From Aeromicrobium sp. A1-2 (GTDB taxonomy: Bacteria; Actinomycetota; Actinomycetes; Propionibacteriales; Nocardioidaceae): DNA of 64,000 nt. Location of the stretch: assembly GCF_003443875.1 (NCBI RefSeq), contig NZ_CP027482.1, forward strand, positions 1,240,001 to 1,304,000, read 5' to 3'. A program made the translations under genes and the position numbers. Each line of letters opens with the position of its first letter. Position 1 is the first letter of the stretch. The notes beneath the pieces were generated by a model. That model worked only from the letters and a program-made list of their open reading frames with translations, searched no databases and was not told where the DNA came from. Positions 27,404 to 42,543 of this stretch are shown here, one piece after another.

Positions 27404-28191
27404 GCGAGTCGCTGCTGAGCCTGGCTCGGACGGTGGGTCGCGAGGCTGCCGCCTTCGTCGCGGATCGGCGTCCCGCGGGACGCGTCGACGTCGCGGCGAC
27501 CAAGTCAAGCCCGACCGATGTCGTCACCGAGATCGACGAGGCCTGCGAGCGACTGATCCGCGAGCGCATCTTCGCAGCGCGACCCGATGACGGCTTCGTC
27601 GGCGAGGAGGGCAACGACGTGGCCGGCTCCTCGGGAGTCGAGTGGGTCGTCGACCCGATCGACGGCACGGTCAACTTCGTCTACGGCATCCCGACGTACG
27701 GCGTCTCGATCGCTGCGCGCCGGGACGGCGAGGTCGTCGCGGGGTACGTCATCAACATCGCCTCGGGCGCCGAGTGGGGCTCGGTCCGCGGTACGGGCTC
27801 GTGGCGCTACGACGGTGACGAGCGGCGAGTGCTCTTCGCCCCGGTCCCCGAGTCGGTCGCCCACGCGCTCGTGGCGACCGGCTTCAACTATGTCCCCGAG
27901 ATCCGTGCCGCCCAGGCTGCGGCGATGGCGACTTTCCTTCCGCAGGTCCGCGACATCCGCCGGATCGGCTCTGCGGCGCTCGACCTGTGCGGTCTCGCCG
28001 AGGGCCAGTTCGACGCGTACCTCGAGCAGGGGCTGAAGCCCTGGGACCTGGCGGCGGGTGGTCTGATCGCCGCCGAGGCCGGACTGGTCCTGAGCGGTCT
28101 GGACGGACCCCCGGGTGAGCGTATGGTCATGGCAGCACATCCCGCGGTCGCGGAGGAATATTTTGCCCTCGTTCGCGCTTGTGGGTTCTGA
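27400..28191 (+). CDS. inositol monophosphatase family protein
   Basis: Mg-dependent Li-sensitive phosphatase family, 263 residues. Motifs: GEEG at 68-71, DPIDGTVNF at 85-93 and [11 protein letters not shown] near 211, which together bind two or three metals. Plausible substrates are inositol-1-phosphate (mycothiol and phosphatidylinositol supply) or other sugar phosphates; the sequence does not decide. ATG 27400 overlaps the cpfC stop as ATGA, so the pair is one operon. Confidence 0.9.
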
Positions 28192-28254
28192 CTGTGAGCG
28201 CTACTTGAAGATGTGGCACAATCACGCCGGTTGTTCCGCACAGAGGGAGATTTG

Positions 28255-28554
28255 ATGGCTACCGACTACGACGCACCACGCAAGACCGAGGAAGAGCAGT
28301 CCGAGGACAGCATCGAGGAGCTCAAGGCGCGTCGGCACGAGAAGAACTCGGGCAAGGTCGACGAGGACGAGACCGAAGCAGCTGAATCGTTCGAGCTGCC
28401 CGGAGCCGACCTCTCCCACGAGGAGCTGGCCGTCCAGGTCGTGCCCAAGCAGCTCGACGAGTTCACCTGCTCGTCATGCTTCCTGGTGCACCACCGCAGC
28501 CAGCTTGCTTCGGAGAAGAACGGCGCGCTCATCTGCCGCGATTGCGCCTACTGA
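28255..28554 (+). CDS. DUF4193 family zinc-binding protein
   Basis: A 99-residue actinobacterial protein. The N-terminal half is strongly charged and probably disordered, ATDYDAPRKTEEEQSEDS. The C-terminal half has CSSCFLVHHRSQL and ends in CRDCAY, giving a four-Cys zinc ribbon. Function unknown; a transcription-associated role has been suspected for the family because of the ribbon. ATG 28255 follows AGGGAG by about six bases. The 3' end overlaps the opposite DUF4235 gene by 26 bases. Confidence 0.88.
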   Translation: MATDYDAPRKTEEEQSEDSIEELKARRHEKNSGKVDEDETEAAESFELPGADLSHEELAVQVVPKQLDEFTCSSCFLVHHRSQLASEKNGALICRDCAY

Positions 28555-28984
28555 CCTTTTTCTTGGTCGACGCACGTTCGGGAGCCGGGTCCGCAAGGAC
28601 CGGCTCCTTTTCGTTTCCCTTGGGCACCGTGACGATCGGCTTCATGCCCGGCGGCAGGTTTCCGGTCGAGCGAACCCAGTAGGTGGCCGTGCCGCGGCGC
28701 ACGGCGACCTTGACGAGCTCGATGATCGCGCCACCTACGACGGCCCAGGCCACGGCCTCGCCGGTCGTGACCTCGGGGTGGCGACCGCTGGTGGGAGGCT
28801 TCTTGCCTGTGACCGCGCGCCAGGCGATGACCGACGCGCGTTGGGCGAGCAGGCCGGCGACGATGGCCGAGCCCTTGTCCATGAGTCGCCATGCGCCCTT
28901 GCCGGGTGACTTGGTCGCGGGTGTGGCTGCTGCCTCCGCCGCAAGCTTGTCGGCGTGCTCAGACTGCTTCTTCTTCTTCGCCAC
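28529..28984 (-). CDS. DUF4235 family membrane protein
   Basis: A 151-residue protein: a Lys-rich head ([12 protein letters not shown]), the DUF4235 core with [17 protein letters not shown] and [24 protein letters not shown] giving about two membrane helices, and a basic tail ending [11 protein letters not shown]. Function unknown. The GTG start lies inside the end of the DUF3093 gene (26-base overlap), and the end overlaps DUF4193 in antisense by 26 bases. Confidence 0.75.
28581..28613 (+). terminator. intrinsic terminator of the DUF4193 gene, inside the opposing gene
   Basis: GGAGCCGGGTCC and GGACCGGCTCC pair around GCAA with a single bulged G, followed by TTTTCGTTT. It lies 26 bases past the DUF4193 stop and within the DUF4235 coding sequence on the other strand. 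Confidence 0.75.
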
Positions 28985-29471
28985 GGGGCGCCTCTCGTGT
29001 GGTCTCGTGCGCCGACGGCTGTGGCGCGCTCCCAGTGTGGCCCAACGCTGCCGCCAGCGCGTCCGGGCGTCGGCTCGACACCAGCCAGTACGGTGCCGGA
29101 TCGCTGGTGTCGTCGATCGGCACCAGGACACCGCGGCCGAGGTAGGGCCGGGTGGCGAGGTACGCCCGGGCGTCGGCACCGATGCCGAGCCGGTGGCGGT
29201 AGGCCTCGTGGTGCAGCGGCTCGACGGCGCCGACGTGCGCCAGGTCGATCGACGCGCGGCCGACCTGGAGCCGGTCCGGCCCGACCGAGACAAGCAGCGA
29301 TCCGTAGCGCCACACGGCGTAGACATCGGCAGCCGCAACAATGAGAAAGGCCGTGATCGCGATCGGCCAGGTGGTCACGACCAGCACGACCCAACCCCAG
29401 ACTGCGGCGAAGGCCAGGGCGGCCATCCACCAGGAGATGGGGGCGGTCAGGCGCTCGCGGTAGGTGGTCAC
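28959..29471 (-). CDS. DUF3093 family membrane protein
   Basis: A 170-residue protein with two N-terminal membrane helices ([20 protein letters not shown] and the next) and a soluble C-terminal part, ending in an acidic tail. [22 protein letters not shown] is the conserved DUF3093 core ([12 protein letters not shown] about 109-120). Function unknown, but the family regularly sits next to dut in actinobacteria, as here. GTG 29471 has AAGG seven bases upstream. It is divergent from dut. Confidence 0.85.
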
Positions 29472-29512
29472 AGTTCAACCTTGCCTCATGCCGCCCCACA
29501 TCGGGACGCAGG

Positions 29513-29518
29513 TAGGGT
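29513..29518 (+). promoter_or_regulatory. leaderless -10 TAGGGT of dut
   Basis: TAGGGT is followed by seven bases and ATG 29526, with no ribosome site. Confidence 0.65.
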
Positions 29519-29525
29519 CGCAGCC

Positions 29526-29993
29526 ATGTTCGAGGTGACCATCACACGGCTGGATCCGGATGTCCCGCTTCCGGGGTACGCACACCCCGGTGACGCCGGC
29601 GCCGATCTCGTCACGACGATCGACGTCGAGCTCGCGCCCGGGGCCCGAGTGCTGGTGCCGACGGGGGTGGCGATCGCGCTGCCGGACGGTCTGGCCGGGT
29701 TCATCCACCCCCGGTCGGGGCTCGCGCTCCGTCACGGCCTGTCGATCGTCAACACCCCGGGCACGATCGATGCCGGTTACCGTGGAGAGATCAAGGTCCT
29801 CCTGGTCAACCACGACCCGCACACGTCAGTGACACTGTCGCGGGGTGACCGGATCGCGCAGCTCGTGATCCAGCGGGTCGAGCGGGTCTCGTTCGTCGAG
29901 GCTGACACGCTTCCCGACTCGGCGCGGGGTGCCGGGGGATACGGTTCAACCGGTGGCCATGCGGCCGCTGTGACGCAGGGGGAGACGAGCTGA
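29526..29993 (+). CDS. dut: dUTP diphosphatase
   Basis: Trimeric dUTPase, hydrolysing dUTP to dUMP to keep uracil out of DNA and feed dTMP synthesis. All five motifs are present: DAGADL at 23-28, [17 protein letters not shown] with the catalytic Asp, RIAQLVIQ, and the C-terminal [11 protein letters not shown] arm. Length 155 is standard. The ATG at 29526 is the leaderless start; longer in-frame readings would run antisense through DUF3093. The TGA overlaps the next ATG by one base. Confidence 0.95.
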
Positions 29994-30634
29994 TGGCACT
30001 TCGACGCAAGAAGGTCCACGCGGACGACCAGGCCGAGGAGCATCACGACCCGGTCGAGACTCCGCCCGCCTTGCGCGCGAACGGCCCGTGGGATGTCTCG
30101 GAGAAGGTCCCTGGCGCCGATGAGCCATACGTCGACCTGGGACCTCTGATCGTCCGCGGGCACGACGACTACGCGATCCAGCTGCCGACCGAGGGCGACA
30201 GCGAGGACATTGGTTCGGTCGTACTCGTCACGGCCGACGCCGCCCTGGAGCTGCGTGCCTTCGCCGCGACGCGATCGGGTGGATTGTGGGACGACGTGCG
30301 CGACGACCTGATCATCGAGGTCGAGCGCCTGGGCGGCCAGAGCGAGCAGATCTCCGGACCGTTCGGGCCCGAGCTGCACATCCGGGTACCGGTCGAGCTG
30401 CCCGATGGCGAGGAGGGCTTCCAGCCCAGCCGCATCGTCGGCATCGAAGGTCCCCGCTGGTTGCTCCGCGGCACGTTCCTGGGCGACGCTGGCCTCAACC
30501 CCAGCGACGAAGGTGTCCTGATGGACGCCCTCAAGAACGTCATCGTGGCGCGCGGCGACGAGCCCCGGATCCCGCGCGAGGCTTTGTTGCTGACACTGCC
30601 CGCGGACGCGGTCATGACATCGGAGCAGGAGTAG
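29993..30634 (+). CDS. DUF3710 family protein
   Basis: A 213-residue soluble protein of the DUF3710 family, which follows dut in many actinobacteria. Function unknown. The N-terminal 40 residues are charged (ALRRKKVHADDQAEEHH); the folded core begins at GPWDVSE, with LDLGPL-type VDLGPLIVRG near 47-56 and GPRWLLRGTFLGDAG near 153-167. No membrane segment. It is translationally coupled to dut through TGATG. Its TAG stop begins the next gene's TAGAAT hexamer. Confidence 0.85.
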   Translation: MALRRKKVHADDQAEEHHDPVETPPALRANGPWDVSEKVPGADEPYVDLGPLIVRGHDDYAIQLPTEGDSEDIGSVVLVTADAALELRAFAATRSGGLWDDVRDDLIIEVERLGGQSEQISGPFGPELHIRVPVELPDGEEGFQPSRIVGIEGPRWLLRGTFLGDAGLNPSDEGVLMDALKNVIVARGDEPRIPREALLLTLPADAVMTSEQE

Positions 30635-30637
30635 AAT
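30632..30637 (+). promoter_or_regulatory. leaderless -10 TAGAAT of the OB-fold gene
   Basis: TAGAAT, six bases, then ATG 30644. It is the closest match to TATAAT among these sites, and its first three bases are the DUF3710 stop codon. Confidence 0.7.
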
Positions 30638-30643
30638 TCAGGC

Positions 30644-30994
30644 ATGGGACGTTTCAGCAGGACGCTCGAGAGGCTCTCCACCGAGAACATCGAGGCCGGG
30701 GAGCTCAAGAGCGAAGCCGTCAAGGCAGGCTGCAAGCTCATCGTCTCCCACCAAGACCGTTCGTTCGTCACGATCCACGGAGTGCTTCGCTCGGTGACGC
30801 TGCGTCCCGTCGGTGAGGTCACAGCCCTTGAGGCCGAGCTCTACGACGGCTCAGACTGTGTCACGCTGATCTGGCTCGGACGCCGCAAGATCGAGGGTGT
30901 GTCGGCCGGTCGACAGCTCAAGGCCTACGGGCGCATCGGCATGCGGACGGGCGATCGGGTCATCTACAACCCGCGCTACGAACTCGAGGCATGA
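30644..30994 (+). CDS. OB-fold nucleic acid-binding domain protein
   Basis: A 116-residue single OB-fold protein. The barrel covers VTIHGVLRSVTLRPVGEVTALEAELYDG onward (VTIHGVLRSV about 42-51), with SDCVTLIWLGRRKIEGVSAG and GRIGMRTGDRVIYNPRYEL as the later strands, resembling the nucleic-acid-binding barrel of DnaE and aminoacyl-tRNA synthetases. What it binds is unknown. The stop overlaps the DUF3159 start as ATGA. Confidence 0.85.
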   Translation: MGRFSRTLERLSTENIEAGELKSEAVKAGCKLIVSHQDRSFVTIHGVLRSVTLRPVGEVTALEAELYDGSDCVTLIWLGRRKIEGVSAGRQLKAYGRIGMRTGDRVIYNPRYELEA

Positions 30995-31662
30995 CCGCCC
31001 CCGACGGCCCGCCGACCACCGACGCACATGACACCGTCGAACAGCTGGTCCGTGCCCAGCTGGCCAAGGCGCTCGGTGGGCGCCGAGGCATCGTCGAGAG
31101 CGCTGTCCCGACGATCCTGTTCACGTTGTCGTGGATCATCTCGCACGACCTGCGGGCGTCGCTGGTCCTGAGCTTTGTCGTGACCGTCGGGCTCCTGGTC
31201 CTCCGCCTCGCGCAGCGCTCGACCGTGCAGTTCGTGGTCAATGCCTTGTTCGGCATCGGCATCGCTGCCCTGTTCGCATCCCGGTCCGGCGAGGCCCGTG
31301 ACGTGTTCCTGCCCGGCATCCTCTACAACGGTGGCTACGCGGTCGTCTTCATCGTCTCGATCGTGGTCGGCTGGCCGTTGCTGGGATTCATGATCGGCAG
31401 CGTCATGGGCGATCCGACGGCGTGGCACGGCGACCGCGGTCTGGTGAGGCTCTGCTCGCAGCTGACCTGGATCATGGCCCTTCCATGCATCCTGCGGGTC
31501 GTCGTGCAGTACCCGCTGTACGCCACCGACCACGTCGCGCTGTTGGGTACGTCCAAGATCGTCCTGGGCTGGCCACTGCAGATTGCCTCGTTCGCGATCA
31601 TGGCGTGGCTCCTGGGCCGCAATCACACGCCGATCGATCCGATCGAGCCCCAGCAGGCCTGA
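30991..31662 (+). CDS. DUF3159 family membrane protein
   Basis: A 223-residue integral membrane protein with about six helices. The N-terminal ALGGRRGIVESAVPTILFTL is the DUF3159 hallmark, followed by HDLRASL and GDPTAWHGDRGLVRLCSQLTW (HGDRGLVRLCSQL near 144-156). Family members sit at this position next to the TrkA-type pair in actinobacteria; transport of an unknown solute has been guessed. Coupled by ATGA to the OB-fold gene. It ends 36 bases before the convergent ceoC. Confidence 0.82.
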   Translation: MTAPDGPPTTDAHDTVEQLVRAQLAKALGGRRGIVESAVPTILFTLSWIISHDLRASLVLSFVVTVGLLVLRLAQRSTVQFVVNALFGIGIAALFASRSGEARDVFLPGILYNGGYAVVFIVSIVVGWPLLGFMIGSVMGDPTAWHGDRGLVRLCSQLTWIMALPCILRVVVQYPLYATDHVALLGTSKIVLGWPLQIASFAIMAWLLGRNHTPIDPIEPQQA

Positions 31663-31697
31663 CCCGCACCTCCCCAGTCAGTGGGAAGGTGGCCGGC

Positions 31698-32360
31698 TCA
31701 GTGCTTGGGGGACAGGAGCTCGCCGAGGTTGTCCTCGGCGTCCTCGGGGGTCACGAACAGCAGCTCGTCGCCCGCCTCCAGCGAGCGATCGGCGTCGGGC
31801 GTCTCGATCGAGTTGTCCCGCAGGATCGCGACCAGCACGACGTCACCGGGCCACGGCACCTCGCTGACGCGCTTGCCGACGAACGGCGAGTCCTCGGGCA
31901 TCGTCAGCTCGACCAGGGTCGTGTTGCTCTGGCGGAACGTGAACAGGCGCACCAGGTCACCCACCGTCACGGCTTCCTCGACCAGGGCTGACATCAGGCG
32001 CGGGGTCGACACCGAGACGTCGACGCCCCACGACTCGCTGAACAGCCACTCATTGCTGGGGTGGTTGACCCGACCGACCGTGCGGGGGACCGAGAACTCG
32101 GTCTTCGCCAGCAGCGAGCAGACCAGGTTGACTTTGTCGTCGCCGGTCGCCGAGATGACGACATCGCAGGACTCCAGCTGGGCCTCCTCGAGCGAGGACA
32201 GCTCGCACGCGTCGGCGAGCAGCCACTGGGCATCGGGCACGGCGTCAGAACGGATGGCTGAGGGCGACTTGTCGATCAGCAGGACGGTGTGGCCGTTGTC
32301 GATGAGTTCCTGGGCGATCGAGCGGCCGACCGCTCCGGCTCCGGCGATCACGACGCGCAT
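31698..32360 (-). CDS. ceoC: TrkA-type RCK potassium uptake regulator (second of pair)
   Basis: A 220-residue cytoplasmic protein with an RCK_N Rossmann domain (VVIAGAGAVGRSIAQEL, glycines at 7-12; acidic LLID for nucleotide binding) and an RCK_C domain (PFVGKRVSEVPWPGDVVLV near 155-175). Such proteins bind NAD(H) or adenine nucleotides and gate K+ transporters. Its ATG overlaps the ceoB TGA by one base, so the two should form a heteromeric ring. No trkH or ktrB is in the window; a KimA-like permease is the adjacent partner. Confidence 0.88.
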   Translation of the reverse strand: MRVVIAGAGAVGRSIAQELIDNGHTVLLIDKSPSAIRSDAVPDAQWLLADACELSSLEEAQLESCDVVISATGDDKVNLVCSLLAKTEFSVPRTVGRVNHPSNEWLFSESWGVDVSVSTPRLMSALVEEAVTVGDLVRLFTFRQSNTTLVELTMPEDSPFVGKRVSEVPWPGDVVLVAILRDNSIETPDADRSLEAGDELLFVTPEDAEDNLGELLSPKH

Positions 32361-33022
32361 CAGTCGGCCTCCGGCCCGGACTCGAGAACGGCATGCGCCT
32401 GCTGGGCGTTGTCTTCACGCATGAACACGCTCAAGTAGTCGCCCTCTTGCATCACGGTGTCGGGACGGGGGATGACGCCGCTGCCGAGCCGTCGCAAGAA
32501 GGCCACGCGAACGCTGGCGGCCTCCTCGAGCTCGGCGACCCGGCGACCGATCCACGCAAACGGGGCGTAGACCTGGTCAAGGCGTACCTCGCCGGACTGG
32601 TCGCGCCAGGCCGACTCGGAGCCGGCCGGCAGCAGCCGGCGGAGCACCTGGTCGGCGGCCCAGGGCACTGTGGCAACCGTGGGCACGCCGAGCCGCTCAT
32701 AGACCTCGGCGCGGCCCGGATCGTAGATGCGGGCGACGACATTGTCGATCTTGAACTGCTCGCGCGCGACACGTGCCGAGATGATGTTGGAGTTGTCGCC
32801 GCTGGAGACCGCGGCGAAGGCGTCGGCGCGCTCGATGCCGGCCTTCTTCAACACCTCGCGGTCGAAGCCCACGCCGGTCACGGCGATCCCGGTGAAACCG
32901 GGGCCGAGCCGCCGGAATGCGTCAGGGTTGGAATCGATCACGGCGGTGGAGTGACCGCGCTCCTCGAGGCTCCGGCTGAGGGCCGAACCGACACGGCCGC
33001 AGCCCATGATCACGATGTGCAC
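32360..33022 (-). CDS. ceoB: TrkA-type RCK potassium uptake regulator (first of pair)
   Basis: A 220-residue paralogue of ceoC: HIVIMGCGRVGSALS with the Gly-rich loop at 7-12, VIDSNPDAF after beta-2, and an RCK_C domain near 145-215. GTG 33022 is chosen because TAGCGT lies seven bases upstream in the leaderless arrangement and the Rossmann strand starts directly; longer in-frame readings run antisense through the permease promoter. It is divergent from the KimA-like gene with 70 bases between starts. Confidence 0.88.
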   Translation of the reverse strand: MHIVIMGCGRVGSALSRSLEERGHSTAVIDSNPDAFRRLGPGFTGIAVTGVGFDREVLKKAGIERADAFAAVSSGDNSNIISARVAREQFKIDNVVARIYDPGRAEVYERLGVPTVATVPWAADQVLRRLLPAGSESAWRDQSGEVRLDQVYAPFAWIGRRVAELEEAASVRVAFLRRLGSGVIPRPDTVMQEGDYLSVFMREDNAQQAHAVLESGPEAD

Positions 33023-33029
33023 GCAGGCG

Positions 33030-33035
33030 ACGCTA
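33030..33035 (-). promoter_or_regulatory. leaderless -10 TAGCGT of ceoB
   Basis: On the minus strand TAGCGT is followed by seven bases and GTG 33022. Confidence 0.6.
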
Positions 33036-33078
33036 CACCGCAGGCGCAGTCGTCGCGCACGGAAGGACCCCCCAGGTC

Positions 33079-33084
33079 TAGCAT
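33079..33084 (+). promoter_or_regulatory. leaderless -10 TAGCAT of the KimA-like gene
   Basis: TAGCAT is followed by eight bases and GTG 33093, with no ribosome site. It faces the ceoB promoter across 43 bases. Confidence 0.5.
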
Positions 33085-33092
33085 CGTCTCTC

Positions 33093-35105
33093 GTGGGTAT
33101 CACCGAGGTTGCCAAACGTGCGTTGGTCGGCCGTAAGCTCCGCAGCACGCAGCTCGGCGAGACCCTTCTCCCCAAGCGGATCGCGTTGCCGGTCTTCGCC
33201 AGCGATGCGCTCTCGTCGGTGGCGTACGCGCCGGACGAGATCTTCCTGACCCTGTCGCTCGGCGGCCTGTCGGCGTACGCGTTCAACTGGAAGATCGGCA
33301 TCGCCGTGGCACTGGTGCTGGCCGTCGTCATCGCGTCCTACCGGCAGAACGTCCACGCGTACCCCAGCGGTGGCGGCGACTACGAGGTCGCGACGGTCAA
33401 TCTCGGACCCACGGCCGGACTGACGGTCGGTAGCGCGTTGCTGGTCGACTACGTCCTGACCGTGGCGGTGTCGATCTCCTCGGGTGTGCAGAATGCGAGC
33501 TCGGCCCTGCCGTGGCTTGACGGCCACGAGGCAACGGCCGCCAGTGCACTGGTGCTGCTGTTGATGGCGATGAACCTGCGCGGGACCAAGGAGTCCGGCA
33601 AGGCGTTCGCGGTCCCGACCTATCTGTTCATGTTCGCGATCCTGATGATGGGGCTGTGGGGCTACGCCCGCTACCTGACCGGCAACCTCCCCGAGGCGCC
33701 CAGCGCAGGGTTCACGATCGCCCCCGAGGACCAGTACGAGAACGGTGTCACCGGCATCGCGATGGTGCTCCTGCTGGCCCGTGCGTTCTCCTCCGGCTGC
33801 GCGGCCCTGACCGGTGTCGAGGCGATCAGCAACGGCGTCCCCGCGTTCACGAAGCCCAAGAGCAAGAACGCCGCCACGACGCTCCTGCTGCTCGGCACGC
33901 TGTCGGTCACGATGCTGATGAGCATCGTGGTGCTCGCGGACCTGATGAAGCTGCGCTACGTCGAGGACCCGGCCACCCAGCTGCTCAAGAACGGGAAGCC
34001 GATCGGTGCGGCGTACGAGCAGGACACCGTGATCGGCCAGCTCGCCAAGACGCTCTACAGCGACTTCACGCCACTGTTCTACTTCACGATCGCGTGCACC
34101 GGCGTGATCCTGGTGCTGGCCGCCAACACGGCCTTCAACGGCTTCCCGGTGCTCGGGTCGATCCTGGCCCGTGACGGATTTCTCCCGCGCCAGCTCGACA
34201 CCCGCGGCGACCGGCTGACCTTCAGCAATGGCATCATCCTGCTCGCCGTCGCAGCGATCGTCCTGATCCAGGCATTCGACGCCGAGGTCACCAAGCTCAT
34301 CCAGCTCTACATCGTCGGTGTGTTCGTGTCGTTCGTGCTCAGCCAGCTCGGGATGATCCGGCACTGGAACCGGCACCTGAGGTCCGAGACCGATCCCGAC
34401 GCCCGACGTCGCATGCAGCGGTCGCGCATCGTCAACACGATCGGCCTGGGCATGACGTTCGCGGTCCTGATCATCGTGCTGGTCACGAAGTTCCTCGCCG
34501 GCGCGTGGATCGCGATCGTGGCCATGGTTGCGGTGTTCATGCTGATGCGCAGCATCGGTCGCCACTACGACCGGGTCTCGACCGAGCTCGAGATCGACGA
34601 CACCGACGTCACGCTCCCGTCGCGGGTCCACGCGATCGTCCTGGTCAGCAGGTTGCACAAGCCGACGATGCGGGCCCTGGCGTACGCCCGTGTCTCCCGT
34701 CCGAACACGATCGAGGCGCTCACGGTGGAGTTCGACCCCGCCGCGACCGAGGCGCTGATGGCGAAGTGGGACGAGCTCGCGATCCCGATCCCGCTGAAGG
34801 TCATCGACTCCCCCTACCGGGAGCTCGTCCGCCCCGTCATCCGGTACGTCAAGGAGCTCCGCAAGCAGAGCCCCCGCGACATCATCACGGTCTACATCCC
34901 CGAGTACGTCGTCGGGCGTTGGTGGGAGCAGCTCCTGCACAACCAGACCGCTTTGCGGCTCAAGGGCAGACTGTTGTTCATGCCCGGCGTGATGGTGACC
35001 AGCGTGCCCTACCAGCTCAGCTCTGCGGGTCGGGCCAAGCAACGACTCGGCCGCAACCGACCGGCGCCCGGCGACGTGCGCCGTGGATACCGGGACCGCG
35101 GATGA
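33093..35105 (+). CDS. KimA-like APC family potassium permease
   Basis: A 670-residue APC-superfamily transporter. Similarity to Bacillus KimA (YdaO), the c-di-AMP-controlled K+/H+ symporter, is clear from memory: FASDALSSVAYAPDEI near 31-46, SYRQNVHAYPSGGGDY, SLLVDYVLTVAVSIS-type SALLVDYVLTVAVSIS, ARAFSSGCAALTGVEAISN, and LAANTAFNGFP. Twelve helices precede a soluble tail of about 150 residues (SRVHAIVLVSRLHKPT on) like KimA's UspA-like domain. GTG 33093 is the leaderless start. It heads an operon with the methyltransferase (ATGA overlap). An amino-acid permease is the alternative, less likely. Confidence 0.82.
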   Translation: MGITEVAKRALVGRKLRSTQLGETLLPKRIALPVFASDALSSVAYAPDEIFLTLSLGGLSAYAFNWKIGIAVALVLAVVIASYRQNVHAYPSGGGDYEVATVNLGPTAGLTVGSALLVDYVLTVAVSISSGVQNASSALPWLDGHEATAASALVLLLMAMNLRGTKESGKAFAVPTYLFMFAILMMGLWGYARYLTGNLPEAPSAGFTIAPEDQYENGVTGIAMVLLLARAFSSGCAALTGVEAISNGVPAFTKPKSKNAATTLLLLGTLSVTMLMSIVVLADLMKLRYVEDPATQLLKNGKPIGAAYEQDTVIGQLAKTLYSDFTPLFYFTIACTGVILVLAANTAFNGFPVLGSILARDGFLPRQLDTRGDRLTFSNGIILLAVAAIVLIQAFDAEVTKLIQLYIVGVFVSFVLSQLGMIRHWNRHLRSETDPDARRRMQRSRIVNTIGLGMTFAVLIIVLVTKFLAGAWIAIVAMVAVFMLMRSIGRHYDRVSTELEIDDTDVTLPSRVHAIVLVSRLHKPTMRALAYARVSRPNTIEALTVEFDPAATEALMAKWDELAIPIPLKVIDSPYRELVRPVIRYVKELRKQSPRDIITVYIPEYVVGRWWEQLLHNQTALRLKGRLLFMPGVMVTSVPYQLSSAGRAKQRLGRNRPAPGDVRRGYRDRG

Positions 35106-36304
35106 GCGCCGACCCGATCGTCGACGTCGGCCCGATCGCGCACGGAGGCCACTGCGTCGCTCGCCTGGACGGCCAGGTCGTCTTCGTGCGGCACACGCTG
35201 CCCGGCGAGCGGGTCCGGATCCGCATCACGGACCGGTCGAAGTCGTTCCTGCGCGCCGACGCGATCGAGATCATCGAGCCGGCCGCGGGCCGGGTCGAGG
35301 CTCCGTGCGCGTACGCCGGGCAGTGCGGCGGGTGTGACTTCCAGCATGTCGACCCCGCGGTCCAGCGGGCGCTGCTCGGTGATGTCGTGCGCGAACAGCT
35401 GCGCCGACTCGCCAACATCGCATGGGACGGGGAGGTTGAGGCGGTCGAGCCTGCCGCGACGGGCTGGCGGACCCGCATGCAGTTCGCGGTCGACGAGCAG
35501 GGCCGTCCCGGTCTCCGGCGACACCGCTCGCACGAGATCATCCCGGTCGATCGTTGCCTGATCGCGCACCCCGAGCTGCCCCAGGTGCTCGGACGCACGT
35601 GGGACGCGGAGTCGGTCGAGGCCATCGTGTCGTCGACGGGCGACCGGCTCCTGGTCACTGACGCGAGCATCCCCGATGACGTCGAGGACGCGGTCGACGG
35701 TGTCGTCGCGGTCGACGGCACGGTCCGCGGTGGCAAGGGCTCGGTCGTCGAGCAGGTGCTCGCCGCCGACTTCCGGGTCTCGGGCTCGGGCTTCTGGCAG
35801 GTGCACCCCGATGCCGCGGCGACGCTCGTTGAGGCCGTCATCGAGGGTGCCCAGGTCGGGGCGGGGGACACCGTGCTGGATCTGTACGCCGGCGTCGGCC
35901 TGTTCACGACCTTCCTGGCCGACGAGGCCGGCGAGGACGGAGCAGTGCTGAGCGTCGAGTCGGATCGGGGCGCCTCACGCGACGCTCGACGCAACCTGCA
36001 CGACCTGCCGCAGGTCCGGCTCGTCGGTGAGACGGTCGAGCGAGCGCTGGGCCAGCGGTTGCTGGGGGTCACGGCCGATGTCGTCGTGCTCGACCCGCCA
36101 CGTACCGGTGCCAAGAAGGCAGTCCGCGGAATCGTCGACCTCGCGCCCCGGCGCATCGTCTACGTCGCGTGCGATCCCGCAGCGCTCGCACGCGACCTGG
36201 CGGCCTTCGGCGCGCACGGCTATCGACTCGACAGCCTTCGCGCGTTCGCACTCTTTCCCATGACGCATCACGTCGAGTGCGTGGCGGTCCTTGTGCAGCG
36301 GTGA
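35102..36304 (+). CDS. TRAM-domain 23S rRNA/tRNA (uracil-5-)-methyltransferase
   Basis: SAM-dependent m5U methyltransferase of the RlmD/TrmA class, 400 residues. An N-terminal TRAM barrel covers ~1-60 (GPIAHGGHCVARLDGQVVF). A [4Fe-4S] site follows with Cys69, Cys75, Cys78 and Cys152. The Rossmann core has LDLYAGVGLFTTFLA and DPPRTG, and the catalytic cysteine is in YVACDPAALARDL near 357. The iron-sulphur site suggests an RlmD-like rRNA enzyme over tRNA-specific TrmA, but the target base cannot be read. ATG 35102 overlaps the permease stop by four bases. Confidence 0.88.
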   Translation: MSADPIVDVGPIAHGGHCVARLDGQVVFVRHTLPGERVRIRITDRSKSFLRADAIEIIEPAAGRVEAPCAYAGQCGGCDFQHVDPAVQRALLGDVVREQLRRLANIAWDGEVEAVEPAATGWRTRMQFAVDEQGRPGLRRHRSHEIIPVDRCLIAHPELPQVLGRTWDAESVEAIVSSTGDRLLVTDASIPDDVEDAVDGVVAVDGTVRGGKGSVVEQVLAADFRVSGSGFWQVHPDAAATLVEAVIEGAQVGAGDTVLDLYAGVGLFTTFLADEAGEDGAVLSVESDRGASRDARRNLHDLPQVRLVGETVERALGQRLLGVTADVVVLDPPRTGAKKAVRGIVDLAPRRIVYVACDPAALARDLAAFGAHGYRLDSLRAFALFPMTHHVECVAVLVQR

Positions 36305-36325
36305 CGGCCAGTCCACAGTGAGGCC

Positions 36326-38881
36326 ATGCGCTTCGCTAATCCTCATGCCTGCCCGGATTGTCGAGGCGCCATCGCCGGCCAGTCCTTCTGTCCGCACTGC
36401 GGCCTCGACCTGACCTCTCCGGAGGTGCGCCAGCTGTGGCAGACCCTCCTGCAGGCCGATGAGCTGCTGGTCAGCGCGACGCGCCAACGGGACGCAGCGG
36501 CCGCCGCGCAGGCCCCTCCAGGCTCGCCGCAGACTCCGACAGCGCCGGTCGCGGCGCCGGCGACACCACCGGTCGGCCCCCACGTCACGGTGCCGCAGCA
36601 GGACCCACCGGCCGCCCCGACAGCGGCCGCTGCGTACGTGAACTATCCGCAGACCGCGGGTCAGGTTCCCATTGCGCGCCCCGAGCGCCGCTGGTCGGTC
36701 GGGACCGTCCTGCTGGTCCTCGGCGCATTCGGCCTGATCGTGGCCGGGCTGATCTTCGTGACCCGCTCCTGGGGCGATCTCGGGCTGGCTGGTCGCACCG
36801 GGGTCCTCCTGGGCGTCACGGTGGTCATCGGTGCGCTCGGCGTGTGGGTCACGGCGCGCCCGCTCCGCGCCTCGGCCGAGGCGGTCTGGACAATCTTCCT
36901 TGCCCTCTTGACGCTCGACTTCTTCGCCGCTCGTCACGAGGGCCTCGCTGGCCTTGGCGGCATGGACGTCCCGTGGGCGTGGATCGTCTGGGGCGTGGTG
37001 GCGCTCGGTCTGGGGATGGCCATCGCGTTGTGGGCGCGACCTCACGTCAAGGCCGACCTGATAGCGCCGGCGATTTGCGGTGGACTCGGCATCACGCTCT
37101 CCGGGCTCGGTGCAGGCGCCGTGCCGGACGACCTCGATTTCGGCTGGCGAGCGATCGTGGCGCTCATCGTCGCAGGGCTCCTAGCCCTGGCGACCAGGCC
37201 TGCACGTCTGCGCCCCATGACCTTGCTGGCCCGTATCGTGTTCGCAGGGTTCTTCATCGCGGCCTATGTCGCGGCGTTCGTCGAGCTTGCCGACCACGCG
37301 TCCCTGCGCCAGCTCACCGTGGACGGGCACGGCTACGCCATGATCGTGATGGCGCTGGCCGCGTTGGTCGTTGCCCGTCTCGTCGAGCCCTTGCGGTTGC
37401 CAGCAGTCGCGCTCGCCGTGCTCGGAGCGGCAGCTCTGGTCATCGCACCGGCGTGGGAGGCGTGGGATCCCGAAGGTGGGTGGCTCGCTGTCGCCGCCGT
37501 GGCCACGGCCCTGACGCTCGGCGCGACGAACGGCACCGGCGCCTGGGTCCGGGGAGTGCGGCTCGGAGCCGTGCCGATCGTCGTCGCGGCGTTGGCCGTC
37601 CAGGTCGCGCTCCTGGGCGAGGCGTTCGCCACGATCGGCCCGATCCTCGAAAATCCGTGGAGAGCGAACGGGAGCAGCCGGCTGGACATCGCCTCTGTCG
37701 TCGACCACGCCGCGTGGGTCGCGCCCGTCCTGCTGGTCGCCTTCCTGCTCGTGACCTGGCTCGTGCTGCGCTGGCCCGAGCTGGACGGCGTTCGTCAGCA
37801 CGGCCCGACGACGCTGGCTGCAGTCATCGCGCTCGGCTCGGCGGGTGCGGTCGTCGCGACCCGGCCACCGGTCTGGACCGCGGCGCTCGCGCTGCTGGTC
37901 GTCGCGGCAGGTCTGGCCGCCGCGCAGGTCCGCGGCCTGGCGCGTCTTGCCGGACCGTCCGCCGTGATCGCCATCATCGGCGCCTCCGGGGTGGCCGCGG
38001 CCTCCCAGGGTGTCTCGGGCGCCACGTGGCTCACCGGTGCGGCCATCCTCGGTGTCCTGGCCTTCGGTCGGGGAGAGGTGCCCGTGCGCCAGGTCCACGC
38101 GGCGCTCGCGGTCCTGCTCGGACTGAGCGGCGTCGCGACGATCGTGGACCTGCTCGATGTCGACGATGCCGTGCCGGCCCTGGTGACTCTCGTGGTCGCG
38201 CTCGGCCTGATCGCGATCGCGGGCCTGCGTACGGATGATGCCCTGCGGCTGCCGATCGAGGTATCCGCCGCGCTGGCGGGAGCCGTGGCGCTCCTAGTTC
38301 CCGGCTCGACCTCCGAGCTGGCGGTGCGATGGACGATCGTCGGCGTCGCGCTGATCGCCCTGAGCTTCGCGGTCCGGGACCGGCGCTGGTATCTCTGGCC
38401 CGGCGCCCTGGCGCTGGTCGTGGCGTACATCCTGCTGATCGTCGACAGCGGCTTCTCATTCGTCGAGGCGTACACGCTCCCGCTCGGGGCTATTGCGCTG
38501 TCCGCCGGCCTCTACGCCGCGCACCGCAAGCCTGACGCCGGGACCTGGCTGCTGCTGGGGCCGGGCCTGGCGCTGGCGCTCCTGCCGAGCCTCCCGCAGG
38601 CCTTGGTCGATCCGACCGACCTGCGTGCCCTACTGCTGGGTCTTGGTGCGGTCGTCGTGCTGGCCCTTGGTGTGCGGATGGGCTGGCAGGCGCCGTTCGT
38701 GACAGGCGTCGTGATCGCGACGTTGCTCGTGCTGTTCAACATCGGCCCGTACGCCAACGCGGCACCCCGAGTCGTGCTGATCGCAGTCGTCAGCGCGATC
38801 CTGCTGGGGTTCGGCATCACCTGGGAGGACCGGGTGCGCGATGGACGCCGACTCGTCGGCTACGTTCGATCGATGCGGTAG
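36326..38881 (+). CDS. large polytopic membrane protein with N-terminal zinc ribbon (SCO7613 C-terminal domain type)
   Basis: An 851-residue protein. Cys9, Cys12, Cys22 and Cys25 form a zinc ribbon. A Pro/Ala-rich linker runs to ~118, and more than 20 hydrophobic segments fill the rest, many separated by only a few polar residues. It resembles the actinobacterial family named after the SCO7613 C-terminal domain and DUF2157-type proteins; no function is known. ATG 36326 lies 21 bases after the methyltransferase stop, so it is probably cotranscribed. The TAG stop overlaps the GGAGG of the RDD gene. Confidence 0.75.
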   Translation: MRFANPHACPDCRGAIAGQSFCPHCGLDLTSPEVRQLWQTLLQADELLVSATRQRDAAAAAQAPPGSPQTPTAPVAAPATPPVGPHVTVPQQDPPAAPTAAAAYVNYPQTAGQVPIARPERRWSVGTVLLVLGAFGLIVAGLIFVTRSWGDLGLAGRTGVLLGVTVVIGALGVWVTARPLRASAEAVWTIFLALLTLDFFAARHEGLAGLGGMDVPWAWIVWGVVALGLGMAIALWARPHVKADLIAPAICGGLGITLSGLGAGAVPDDLDFGWRAIVALIVAGLLALATRPARLRPMTLLARIVFAGFFIAAYVAAFVELADHASLRQLTVDGHGYAMIVMALAALVVARLVEPLRLPAVALAVLGAAALVIAPAWEAWDPEGGWLAVAAVATALTLGATNGTGAWVRGVRLGAVPIVVAALAVQVALLGEAFATIGPILENPWRANGSSRLDIASVVDHAAWVAPVLLVAFLLVTWLVLRWPELDGVRQHGPTTLAAVIALGSAGAVVATRPPVWTAALALLVVAAGLAAAQVRGLARLAGPSAVIAIIGASGVAAASQGVSGATWLTGAAILGVLAFGRGEVPVRQVHAALAVLLGLSGVATIVDLLDVDDAVPALVTLVVALGLIAIAGLRTDDALRLPIEVSAALAGAVALLVPGSTSELAVRWTIVGVALIALSFAVRDRRWYLWPGALALVVAYILLIVDSGFSFVEAYTLPLGAIALSAGLYAAHRKPDAGTWLLLGPGLALALLPSLPQALVDPTDLRALLLGLGAVVVLALGVRMGWQAPFVTGVVIATLLVLFNIGPYANAAPRVVLIAVVSAILLGFGITWEDRVRDGRRLVGYVRSMR

Positions 38882-38891
38882 GAGGCAGCCC

Positions 38892-39578
38892 ATGGCGAGT
38901 TACCGGACGATCAAGCAACTGAGACGAGCGGCTCTCGGGCACGACGCGCTGCTGTTCAGCGCCGCGTTCACCGCCGGCGCGCTGGCCTTCGCCGTGGTCG
39001 GGCTCATCGGCGAGCTCGCGACCGACAGCGCCAACAGGGACTTCTGGTCGATCAGCCTGTCCGACAACCTGATCCTGAGCGGACTGGTCGCCGGCGAGCT
39101 CTTCGTCATCTGGAACAACGGGCTGCGACAGGGCCTGCGGGGCCACAGCCTGGGCAAGCACCGGGTCGGCATCGCCGTCGTCGACGTCGGGGACGGTGCG
39201 CCCACCGGTGCGCTCCGTGGGGTGCTGCGCGGCGCGATCATGGCTGTCCTGCTGGATCTCGCGGCCGCCGCGATCCCGATCGGGCTGCCGACCGTGCTCC
39301 GGAGCTCGACCCCCGAGAGCTGGCACTTCGGCGGCGCCGCCTACCTCGCGCTGCTGGTCCTGCTCGTGCCCCTGGTGCTGTCGTCCGATCGTGGATTCGC
39401 AGACCGGATCGCGCGGACCAAGGTCGTCCGAGCAAGCGGTTCGGACGCCGTCACGTCGGTCCGCCGCAGCCGGGTGCTGGTCGCGATCGACGTGCTCGGA
39501 GTCGTGGGTCTGCTGGCAGTCGCGATCTCGTACATCGCCTACTTCTCGCCGCTCCTGCGCTTCCCCCAGCCGTTCTGA
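38892..39578 (+). CDS. RDD family membrane protein
   Basis: A 228-residue membrane protein. The RDD core GHSLGKHRVGIAVVDVGDG near 85-103 carries the Gly/Lys-His-Arg pattern of the family, flanked by helices LLFSAAFTAGALAFAVVGLI and NLILSGLVAGELFVIW. Some RDD proteins act as Na+/H+ antiporters; most are uncharacterised. ATG 38892 has GGAGG six bases upstream, overlapping the previous TAG. It is the last gene of the KimA-like operon. Confidence 0.8.
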   Translation: MASYRTIKQLRRAALGHDALLFSAAFTAGALAFAVVGLIGELATDSANRDFWSISLSDNLILSGLVAGELFVIWNNGLRQGLRGHSLGKHRVGIAVVDVGDGAPTGALRGVLRGAIMAVLLDLAAAAIPIGLPTVLRSSTPESWHFGGAAYLALLVLLVPLVLSSDRGFADRIARTKVVRASGSDAVTSVRRSRVLVAIDVLGVVGLLAVAISYIAYFSPLLRFPQPF

Positions 39579-39617
39579 CCCGTTGCGGCGGGGGAGTGGG
39601 CAATCTTCTCGATATCA

Positions 39618-39639
39618 TGTATCTTGATGTCAAGAGACA
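39618..39639. promoter_or_regulatory. 22-base palindromic operator candidate upstream of acnA
   Basis: TCTTGA-TG-TCAAGA (39622-39635) extended by TGTA and GACA, so that ten of eleven base pairs match. A MarR/TetR-sized dimer site about 85 bases before the acnA ATG. In Streptomyces coelicolor the MarR protein TamR controls aconitase; I cannot confirm that its motif is the same. Confidence 0.6.
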
Positions 39640-39720
39640 TTCGCCCAAGGTTAGGCCTACCTGACCGTGCGTCCCACAGCGATGCTGGGCAGGATGGAAG
39701 ACGACGCGAAGGAGAAGACG

Positions 39721-42543
<2,823 letters not shown>

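Follow-up and report, generated by a model that had tools for sequence, protein, structure and literature searches.

Two adjacent genes for RCK (regulator of K+ conductance) proteins, ceoB and ceoC, lie in a 64,000-nucleotide stretch of the Aeromicrobium sp. A1-2 genome (contig NZ_CP027482.1, positions 1,240,001 to 1,304,000; hereafter the window) and raise the question of which membrane protein they serve, as their membrane neighbour is a KimA-type permease. With slightly more belief than doubt, we favour the reading that CeoB and CeoC (together CeoBC; the gene names are those of Mycobacterium) would form a ring whose main partner is the adjacent symporter, with nucleotide-linked control by the ring and separate control by cyclic di-AMP (c-di-AMP). 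The observed basis of this reading consists of the homologies, the gene linkage and its conservation, an anti-correlation with trkH and the conserved active sites. Functional coupling of CeoBC and KimA is well supported by the comparative evidence, which agrees with published genetics. The features concerned are, in window coordinates:

31698..32360, minus strand: ceoC, RCK protein of 220 amino acids; TrkA_N 86.6 bits, TrkA_C 56.4 bits; resembles TM1088B
32360..33022, minus strand: ceoB, RCK protein of 220 amino acids from a GTG start; motif G7xG9xxG12...D30; resembles TM1088A
33023..33092, no strand: 70-bp gap between the start codons of the divergent ceoB and permease genes
33093..35105, plus strand: predicted KimA-type K+/H+ symporter, 670 amino acids; PDB 6s3k match at E 1e-109
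34938..34949, plus strand: part of the predicted c-di-AMP pocket, H616-N617-Q618-T619, aligned to KimA H579-S582 and class-conserved
35019..35102, plus strand: C-terminal tail of the permease past the KimA end; helix 643-654, low-confidence stretch to 670, GDVRRG-like motif

Identity of the permease and of the RCK pair

An earlier, sequence-only reading of the window described an RCK pair divergent from a KimA-like permease across a 70-base gap; the gap is exactly 70 bp, and both homologies are borne out by domain and PDB matches. The listed open reading frame of ceoB that reaches 33331 is a 5' extension of the gene, for which the GTG start was chosen, and the permease most likely begins at GTG 33093, as the alternative ATG at 33006 falls inside ceoB.

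At E <= 0.001 the only PDB match of the permease is KimA (6s3k, 8b70 and 8b71), covering residues 7-642. Its AlphaFold (AF2) model, built from 19 sequences with a mean pLDDT (predicted local distance difference test) of 81.8, finds the same three structures as best fold matches (8b70, 8b71, 6s3k; template modelling score to the target 0.79-0.86), and both kinds of match yield an APC/LeuT-fold membrane domain with a PPAT-like cytosolic domain. All eight residues implicated in K+/H+ transport by KimA (D36, Y43, D117, T121, S125, T230, E233 and Y377; numbering from PMC6994465 and PMC10284832, these and all further papers given by PMC number being cited from the portions of their text that were available) are present, and each is kept in 143 or 144 of the 144 permeases of the class Actinomycetes that lie beside RCK genes. 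Judged by its sequence, the permease is a full-length KimA-type K+/H+ symporter. The likeness to KimA of Bacillus subtilis, a member of the KUP family, extends to full-length homology including the cytosolic domain, the K+/H+ residues and most residues of the predicted c-di-AMP pocket; unlike that protein, the window permease adjoins a CeoB-CeoC pair and has an extra C-terminal helix and tail. An RCK partner of KimA is not mentioned in the available text of the two papers cited above.

The tail could possibly be a docking segment, and the distribution of its motif is mixed. Under a strict pattern the GDVRRG-like motif occurs in 93 of 128 class permeases and in none of 51 outside the class, and the tail is lost in Arthrobacter hankyongi, where no RCK gene lies upstream; the motif is also kept in the genome G009, which is without CeoBC, and partly in a paralog (L231). 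Many KimA relatives outside the class, among them those of L079, L097 and other loci of the phylum sample, have a second match to the C-terminal cytosolic domain of about 140 residues. In one further genome (G029:C1:4050889-4052924) the match to the permease gene is split into two overlapping parts, which points to a frameshift or a sequencing error.

Turning to the RCK proteins, the best PDB match of CeoB is TM1088A, at 94.8 bits versus 55.5 for TM1088B, and CeoC scores 76.2 bits with TM1088B versus 48.6 with TM1088A, the single-chain TrkA structures 4g65 (93.4) and 4j9u (90.9) being higher still. CeoB further contains TrkA_N (89.5 bits) and TrkA_C (32.7 bits; cut-off 27) domains, and its nucleotide-motif positions are kept in at least 90% of 60 rows. 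The locus hence holds, side by side, one RCK gene of the TM1088A type and one of the TM1088B type, and on the strength of these matches CeoB and CeoC resemble the two subunits of the Thermotoga maritima TrkA ring, which occurs with TrkH (TM1089; PDB 3l4b; PMC4380455). The adjacent, overlapping arrangement of the genes is a further likeness. Two differences stand out: the membrane neighbour is KimA-type here and TrkH there, and CeoB has a TrkA_C domain, whereas TM1088A is without one. KtrAB and TrkAH would offer an analogy in the RCK regulation of K+ uptake, but there the partner in the membrane belongs to the TrkH family of channels and is not a symporter of the APC/LeuT fold.

A tree of 96 of 201 RCK pairs, made by a quick method with a midpoint root and with most near-duplicate KimA-linked pairs omitted, groups the 53 KimA-linked pairs without exception in a single 61-row clade (SH-aLRT, the Shimodaira-Hasegawa-like approximate likelihood ratio test, 99). 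One locus was dropped as too short (L122) and another, with KtrB also adjacent (L160), was labelled KimA by hand. Also in this clade are seven pairs without a partner in the stretch, of which two come from contig ends, and a single pair that neighbours a P-type ATPase. All 18 pairs with the TrkH label branch elsewhere, as do the remaining 16 with the P-type ATPase label.

Potassium genes elsewhere in the genome

The assembly is a single contig of 3,446,585 bp and is 99.99% complete. The remark of the sequence-only reading that no trkH was in sight is accurate for the locus and does not extend to the genome: the search for trkH, ktrB and kdp that it proposed returned a single TrkH-family match at E <= 0.001 (912476-913720), 360 kb from ceoBC and with its own single RCK gene (ktrA) directly after it, and no KdpA match at the same threshold. 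A genome search with TrkA_N gave three strong matches, CeoB, CeoC and KtrA, and four weak ones. Because no TrkH or KtrB subunit is encoded at the locus and the sole genomic TrkH has an RCK gene of its own, the locus is not classed as a complete Trk system.

Linkage of ceoBC to KimA across the phylum

Among 197 genomes sampled from the phylum, a CeoC ortholog (E <= 1e-50, an author-chosen cut below which the scores are continuous) occurs in 61, of which 18 belong to the class and 43 do not. A KimA relative is present in 59 of these 61 versus 17 of the 136 genomes without CeoC (Fisher p 5e-32), and TrkH in 13 of 61 versus 105 of 136 (Fisher p 1e-13); neither test carries a phylogenetic correction, and shared ancestry matters here because the groups differ by class. 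The 59 is a lower bound, since the permease of G201 was missed although a permease profile made for this analysis finds it beside CeoBC (L109), where no Pfam family was found in the long permease frame. By coordinates, the permease stands beside CeoBC in all 18 class genomes of this sample (17 fetched loci and the window). Of the 43 loci fetched from outside the class, KimA is present in 36. The stretch reaches a contig end in five of the other seven, and in the last two (L070, L100) the pair adjoins a pyrophosphatase or a P-type ATPase. Viewed from the permease, an RCK gene lies upstream in 76 of 80 named loci, with two such genes in 75; of the four loci without one, three lie at the end of a contig and one is that of A. 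hankyongi.

A second sample, of 148 class genomes, has CeoC in 141 and TrkH in 56. TrkH is present in all seven genomes without CeoC, which belong to one family, versus 49 of the 141 with it (Fisher p 0.0009). CeoC loci were fetched for 40 of the 141, 20 spread over families and 20 mostly picked as odd; in the family-spread set KimA lies beside CeoBC in 19, the miss being G307.

Within the class the flanking genes have also stayed in place:

30991..31662, plus strand: DUF3159 gene; context, part of a class-conserved block and outside the system itself
35102..36304, plus strand: RumA-like methyltransferase gene (TRAM and tRNA_U5-meth_tr); context, same block

Both are found near 36 of 41 class loci with KimA and CeoC, and since this block is itself conserved, adjacency within the class counts as weak evidence. 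Outside the class neither gene occurs in the fetched stretch of any of 37 loci with KimA and CeoC, and in seven of 36 linked loci the RCK pair and its nearest permease share a strand; the linkage thus spans a different neighbourhood and more than one orientation. That it is not accidental is supported. The conservation across actinobacteria which the sequence-only reading had set as a check is seen in the order, in the class and in the 36 loci outside it. That reading had also named what would speak against it, namely a trkH tracking ceoBC together with frequent absence of the permease beside the pair: the former is not what is observed, and the latter applies in part, the permease being missing beside the pair in several lineages.

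In the other genomes of the order, Propionibacteriales, the arrangement is adjacent by coordinates in 14 of 14, with a TrkH match in two. The genus is represented by 25 genomes. CeoBC and the permease occur together in 18 of them (adjacent in 17; on different contigs in G004); G009 has the permease without CeoBC, G002, G014 and G020 have CeoBC without the permease, and G001, G017 and G023 lack both, G001, G002 and G017 being 82-83% complete. None of the 19 permease-bearing genomes has a second TrkH, but G014, G020 and G023 do (Fisher p 0.009; in G012 and in G015 a double TrkH match was taken as a single split gene). As G002, G004, G014 and G020 form one clade (SH-aLRT 96), the break of linkage in these genomes may be a single event. 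The idea that CeoBC evolves faster in G014 and G020 was set aside; their CeoBC end branches are longer (0.32 and 0.20 versus a median of 0.068, with no control gene compared).

c-di-AMP control

The sequence-only reading had allowed RCK control to replace or to add to control by c-di-AMP; replacement is not supported. The genome encodes one diadenylate cyclase, and of the contact positions described for KimA (PMC10284832) the window permease keeps Y118, N237, R337, V457, L461, H579, N580 and Q581, with P479, A481, F565, F568, I569, S582, R587 and W592 replaced. Across the 144 RCK-adjacent permeases of the class, Y118 and N237 never vary; R337 is retained in 137 of them, H579 in 143, and N580 and Q581 in 142 each, and P479, F565, F568, R587 and W592 are mostly substituted. 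Permeases outside the class have often lost the H-N-Q stretch, whether or not RCK genes are present. Because the KimA pocket is largely kept, RCK control is no visible substitute for c-di-AMP in this lineage; on sequence grounds it may add to c-di-AMP control. No Rfam family was found at gathering thresholds in window positions 28000-40000, hence no c-di-AMP riboswitch match.

Proposed mechanism and competing explanations

In the arrangement that we favour, CeoB and CeoC would assemble into a TrkA/RCK ring of two subunit types, which in Actinomycetota would have the adjacent KimA-type K+/H+ symporter, rather than TrkH, as its main partner in the membrane. Like TM1088A and TrkA, the ring may bind adenine nucleotides; it would contact the cytosolic side of the KimA dimer, thereby tying K+ uptake to the energy state of the cell, and c-di-AMP would act separately through the pocket of KimA itself. 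The best reading of these comparisons is that CeoBC would regulate KimA directly and not exclusively.

Several observations weigh against so close a pairing. The first concerns separate loss. The permease is absent genome-wide from G014 and G020, which keep CeoBC, and in G014 it is cleanly missing because RumA directly adjoins CeoB. Conversely, G009 keeps the permease with CeoBC cleanly missing and neither a second nor a third RCK gene anywhere in its genome, A. hankyongi has KimA without an RCK gene in 6 kb upstream, and the 17 phylum genomes noted above have a KimA relative without a CeoC ortholog. Among the 20 class loci mostly picked as odd, 15 have no KimA at the locus: six of family f73, seven of family f69, G288 and G242 (for these, as for G307, the absence concerns the locus alone). 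The f69 genomes have a divergent CeoC, and f69, G288, G242 and G307 have one or two TrkH each. RumA and DUF3159 are still present in the 12 KimA-less class loci examined for gene order, which shows that the block has stayed intact there apart from the permease. As several lineages keep CeoBC without KimA at the locus, CeoBC probably serves other partners too.

Other points on this side concern fusions, TrkH and genetics. No KimA-RCK fusion was found among the earlier-fetched loci, to which this check applied. The expectation that an orphan TrkH would appear wherever KimA had been lost mostly failed, as all ten class genomes of this kind carry a TrkH accompanied by an RCK gene of its own. A further TrkH is present in three of these ten and in none of eight KimA genomes examined, which have one TrkH plus RCK each; outside those eight, G046 has KimA beside CeoBC and two TrkH. 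Finally, M. tuberculosis lacking ceoBC and kdp still imports K+, which the authors credit to other channels (PMC13163235), and CeoBC is therefore dispensable for some K+ import.

The competing explanation that survives best, though we hold it unlikely, is that CeoBC and KimA are merely co-regulated: they would belong to one K+ homeostasis module with a shared divergent promoter region, CeoBC being a general regulator of several transporters that does not bind KimA specifically. The retention of CeoBC in lineages without KimA at the locus is as this predicts, as is the occurrence of related RCK pairs beside TrkH and P-type ATPases, and few residues are specific to the KimA clade (five at the chosen thresholds, one in CeoB and four in CeoC). 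However, the seven linked loci whose nearest permease is on the same strand share no divergent promoter, and in the class no RCK gene occurs in the stretches fetched around eight unlinked KimA paralogs.

Considerably less probable is a canonical Trk arrangement, in which CeoBC would gate a TrkH or KtrB encoded elsewhere and its adjacency to KimA would be passive conservation of gene order. The class-wide RumA-KimA-CeoBC-DUF3159 block fits this proposal, and so do G014 and G020, which retain CeoBC after loss of the permease and have an additional TrkH with no RCK gene directly adjacent (that of G023 has one; in G014 a Na/H exchanger with TrkA_C lies about 1.4 kb from the extra TrkH). Yet no TrkH match is found in 92 of the 141 class genomes with CeoC, and the TrkH of the window genome has its own RCK gene, as is usual in the class, where 18 of 20 fetched TrkH loci have one adjacent (one of them with two TrkH in tandem), the two without being the second TrkH genes of G300 and G307. 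Passive gene order as the whole explanation, plausible within the class, is rejected in view of the loci outside it, where the linkage persists without RumA and DUF3159.

That CeoBC serves another membrane protein in most hosts, for instance an MchK-like channel, is very improbable: the six fetched f73 genomes (L242-L247; 1.2-2.2 Mb) keep CeoBC without KimA at the locus, and no TrkH match occurs in any of the 14 f73 genomes sampled, but when 40 class loci were scanned with profiles for four transporter kinds (TrkH, P-type ATPase, pyrophosphatase, Na/H exchanger), a single further one turned up beside CeoBC (a P-type ATPase, L272), and the only other strong TrkA_N match of the window genome is KtrA.

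Relation to the mycobacterial Trk proteins

The mycobacterial Trk proteins (CeoB and CeoC; TrkA and TrkB of M. smegmatis) are encoded in the same gene arrangement in the Mycobacterium loci fetched here, and ceoB and Rv2690c are adjacent in M. tuberculosis (PMC12216072). From this shared gene order, Rv2690c would be a KimA-type permease. The available text of PMC13163235, PMC8358298, PMC4553272 and PMC5401905 describes mycobacterial Trk as two TrkA-type proteins with the membrane partner unnamed, and a word search of the available text of PMC6375644 and PMC12136442 found no mention of TrkH, TrkG, TrkA or Rv2690. Among the matches listed from the open literature, no title or abstract start states a pairing of KimA with CeoBC.

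Published genetics brings the genes together on several occasions. Transposon mutants of M. tuberculosis ceoB and Rv2690c have a rifampicin-survival phenotype in common (PMC12216072), both genes are tabulated among regions enriched in unfixed within-host variants (PMC13308281), and changes in Rv2690c and ceoC emerged in one isolate (PMC11878324). Further phenotypes are on record for CeoBC of M. tuberculosis (PMC12136442, PMC8358298) and cited for TrkA of M. smegmatis (PMC13163235, PMC9025972).

If CeoBC does act on KimA, the mycobacterial Trk would be an RCK-regulated symporter, and RCK rings would control a secondary symporter, not channels alone, alongside c-di-AMP control. In the text available, mycobacterial Trk is tied to infection-related and drug-survival phenotypes, yet treated as two TrkA proteins with no membrane pore; were the KimA-type permease the missing membrane partner, this gap would become directly testable.

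RCK pairs beside other transporters

Taken over all the loci, it is a tentative possibility that the two-subunit RCK ring is an exchangeable module for TrkH channels, KimA symporters and type-IIC-like P-type ATPases, with KimA cognate in most Actinomycetes.

Profile searches place an RCK pair beside a same-strand P-type ATPase, mostly in other classes, at L114, L116-L119, L121-L125, L127 and L128, and also at L069, L113 and L115; Pfam checks were made on L114, L117, L121 and L128, and the best NCBIfam model for the ATPases of L117 and L128 is the Na,H/K type IIC, below its cut-off. RCK regulation of the P-type ATPase in those loci is possible. A membrane pyrophosphatase, HppA, lies within about 3 kb of the RCK pair outside the class at L070-L077, L079, L082, L085, L092, L093, L096, L097, L101, L114, L116, L118 and L126 by profile search (Pfam check on L070 and L114).

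Further variants involve additional RCK proteins. In two class genomes a second CeoC copy adjoins a Na/H exchanger bearing TrkA_C (L067 2896-5190, L068 2762-4405), and in two Streptomyces loci ceoB and the permease are separated by a protein of 676-705 amino acids that has two TrkA_N stretches (L185 3440-5470, L212 3683-5800). Lastly, the cluster at L160 (4507-10091) unites CeoC-CeoB, a divergent KimA-like permease and then KtrB and KtrA.

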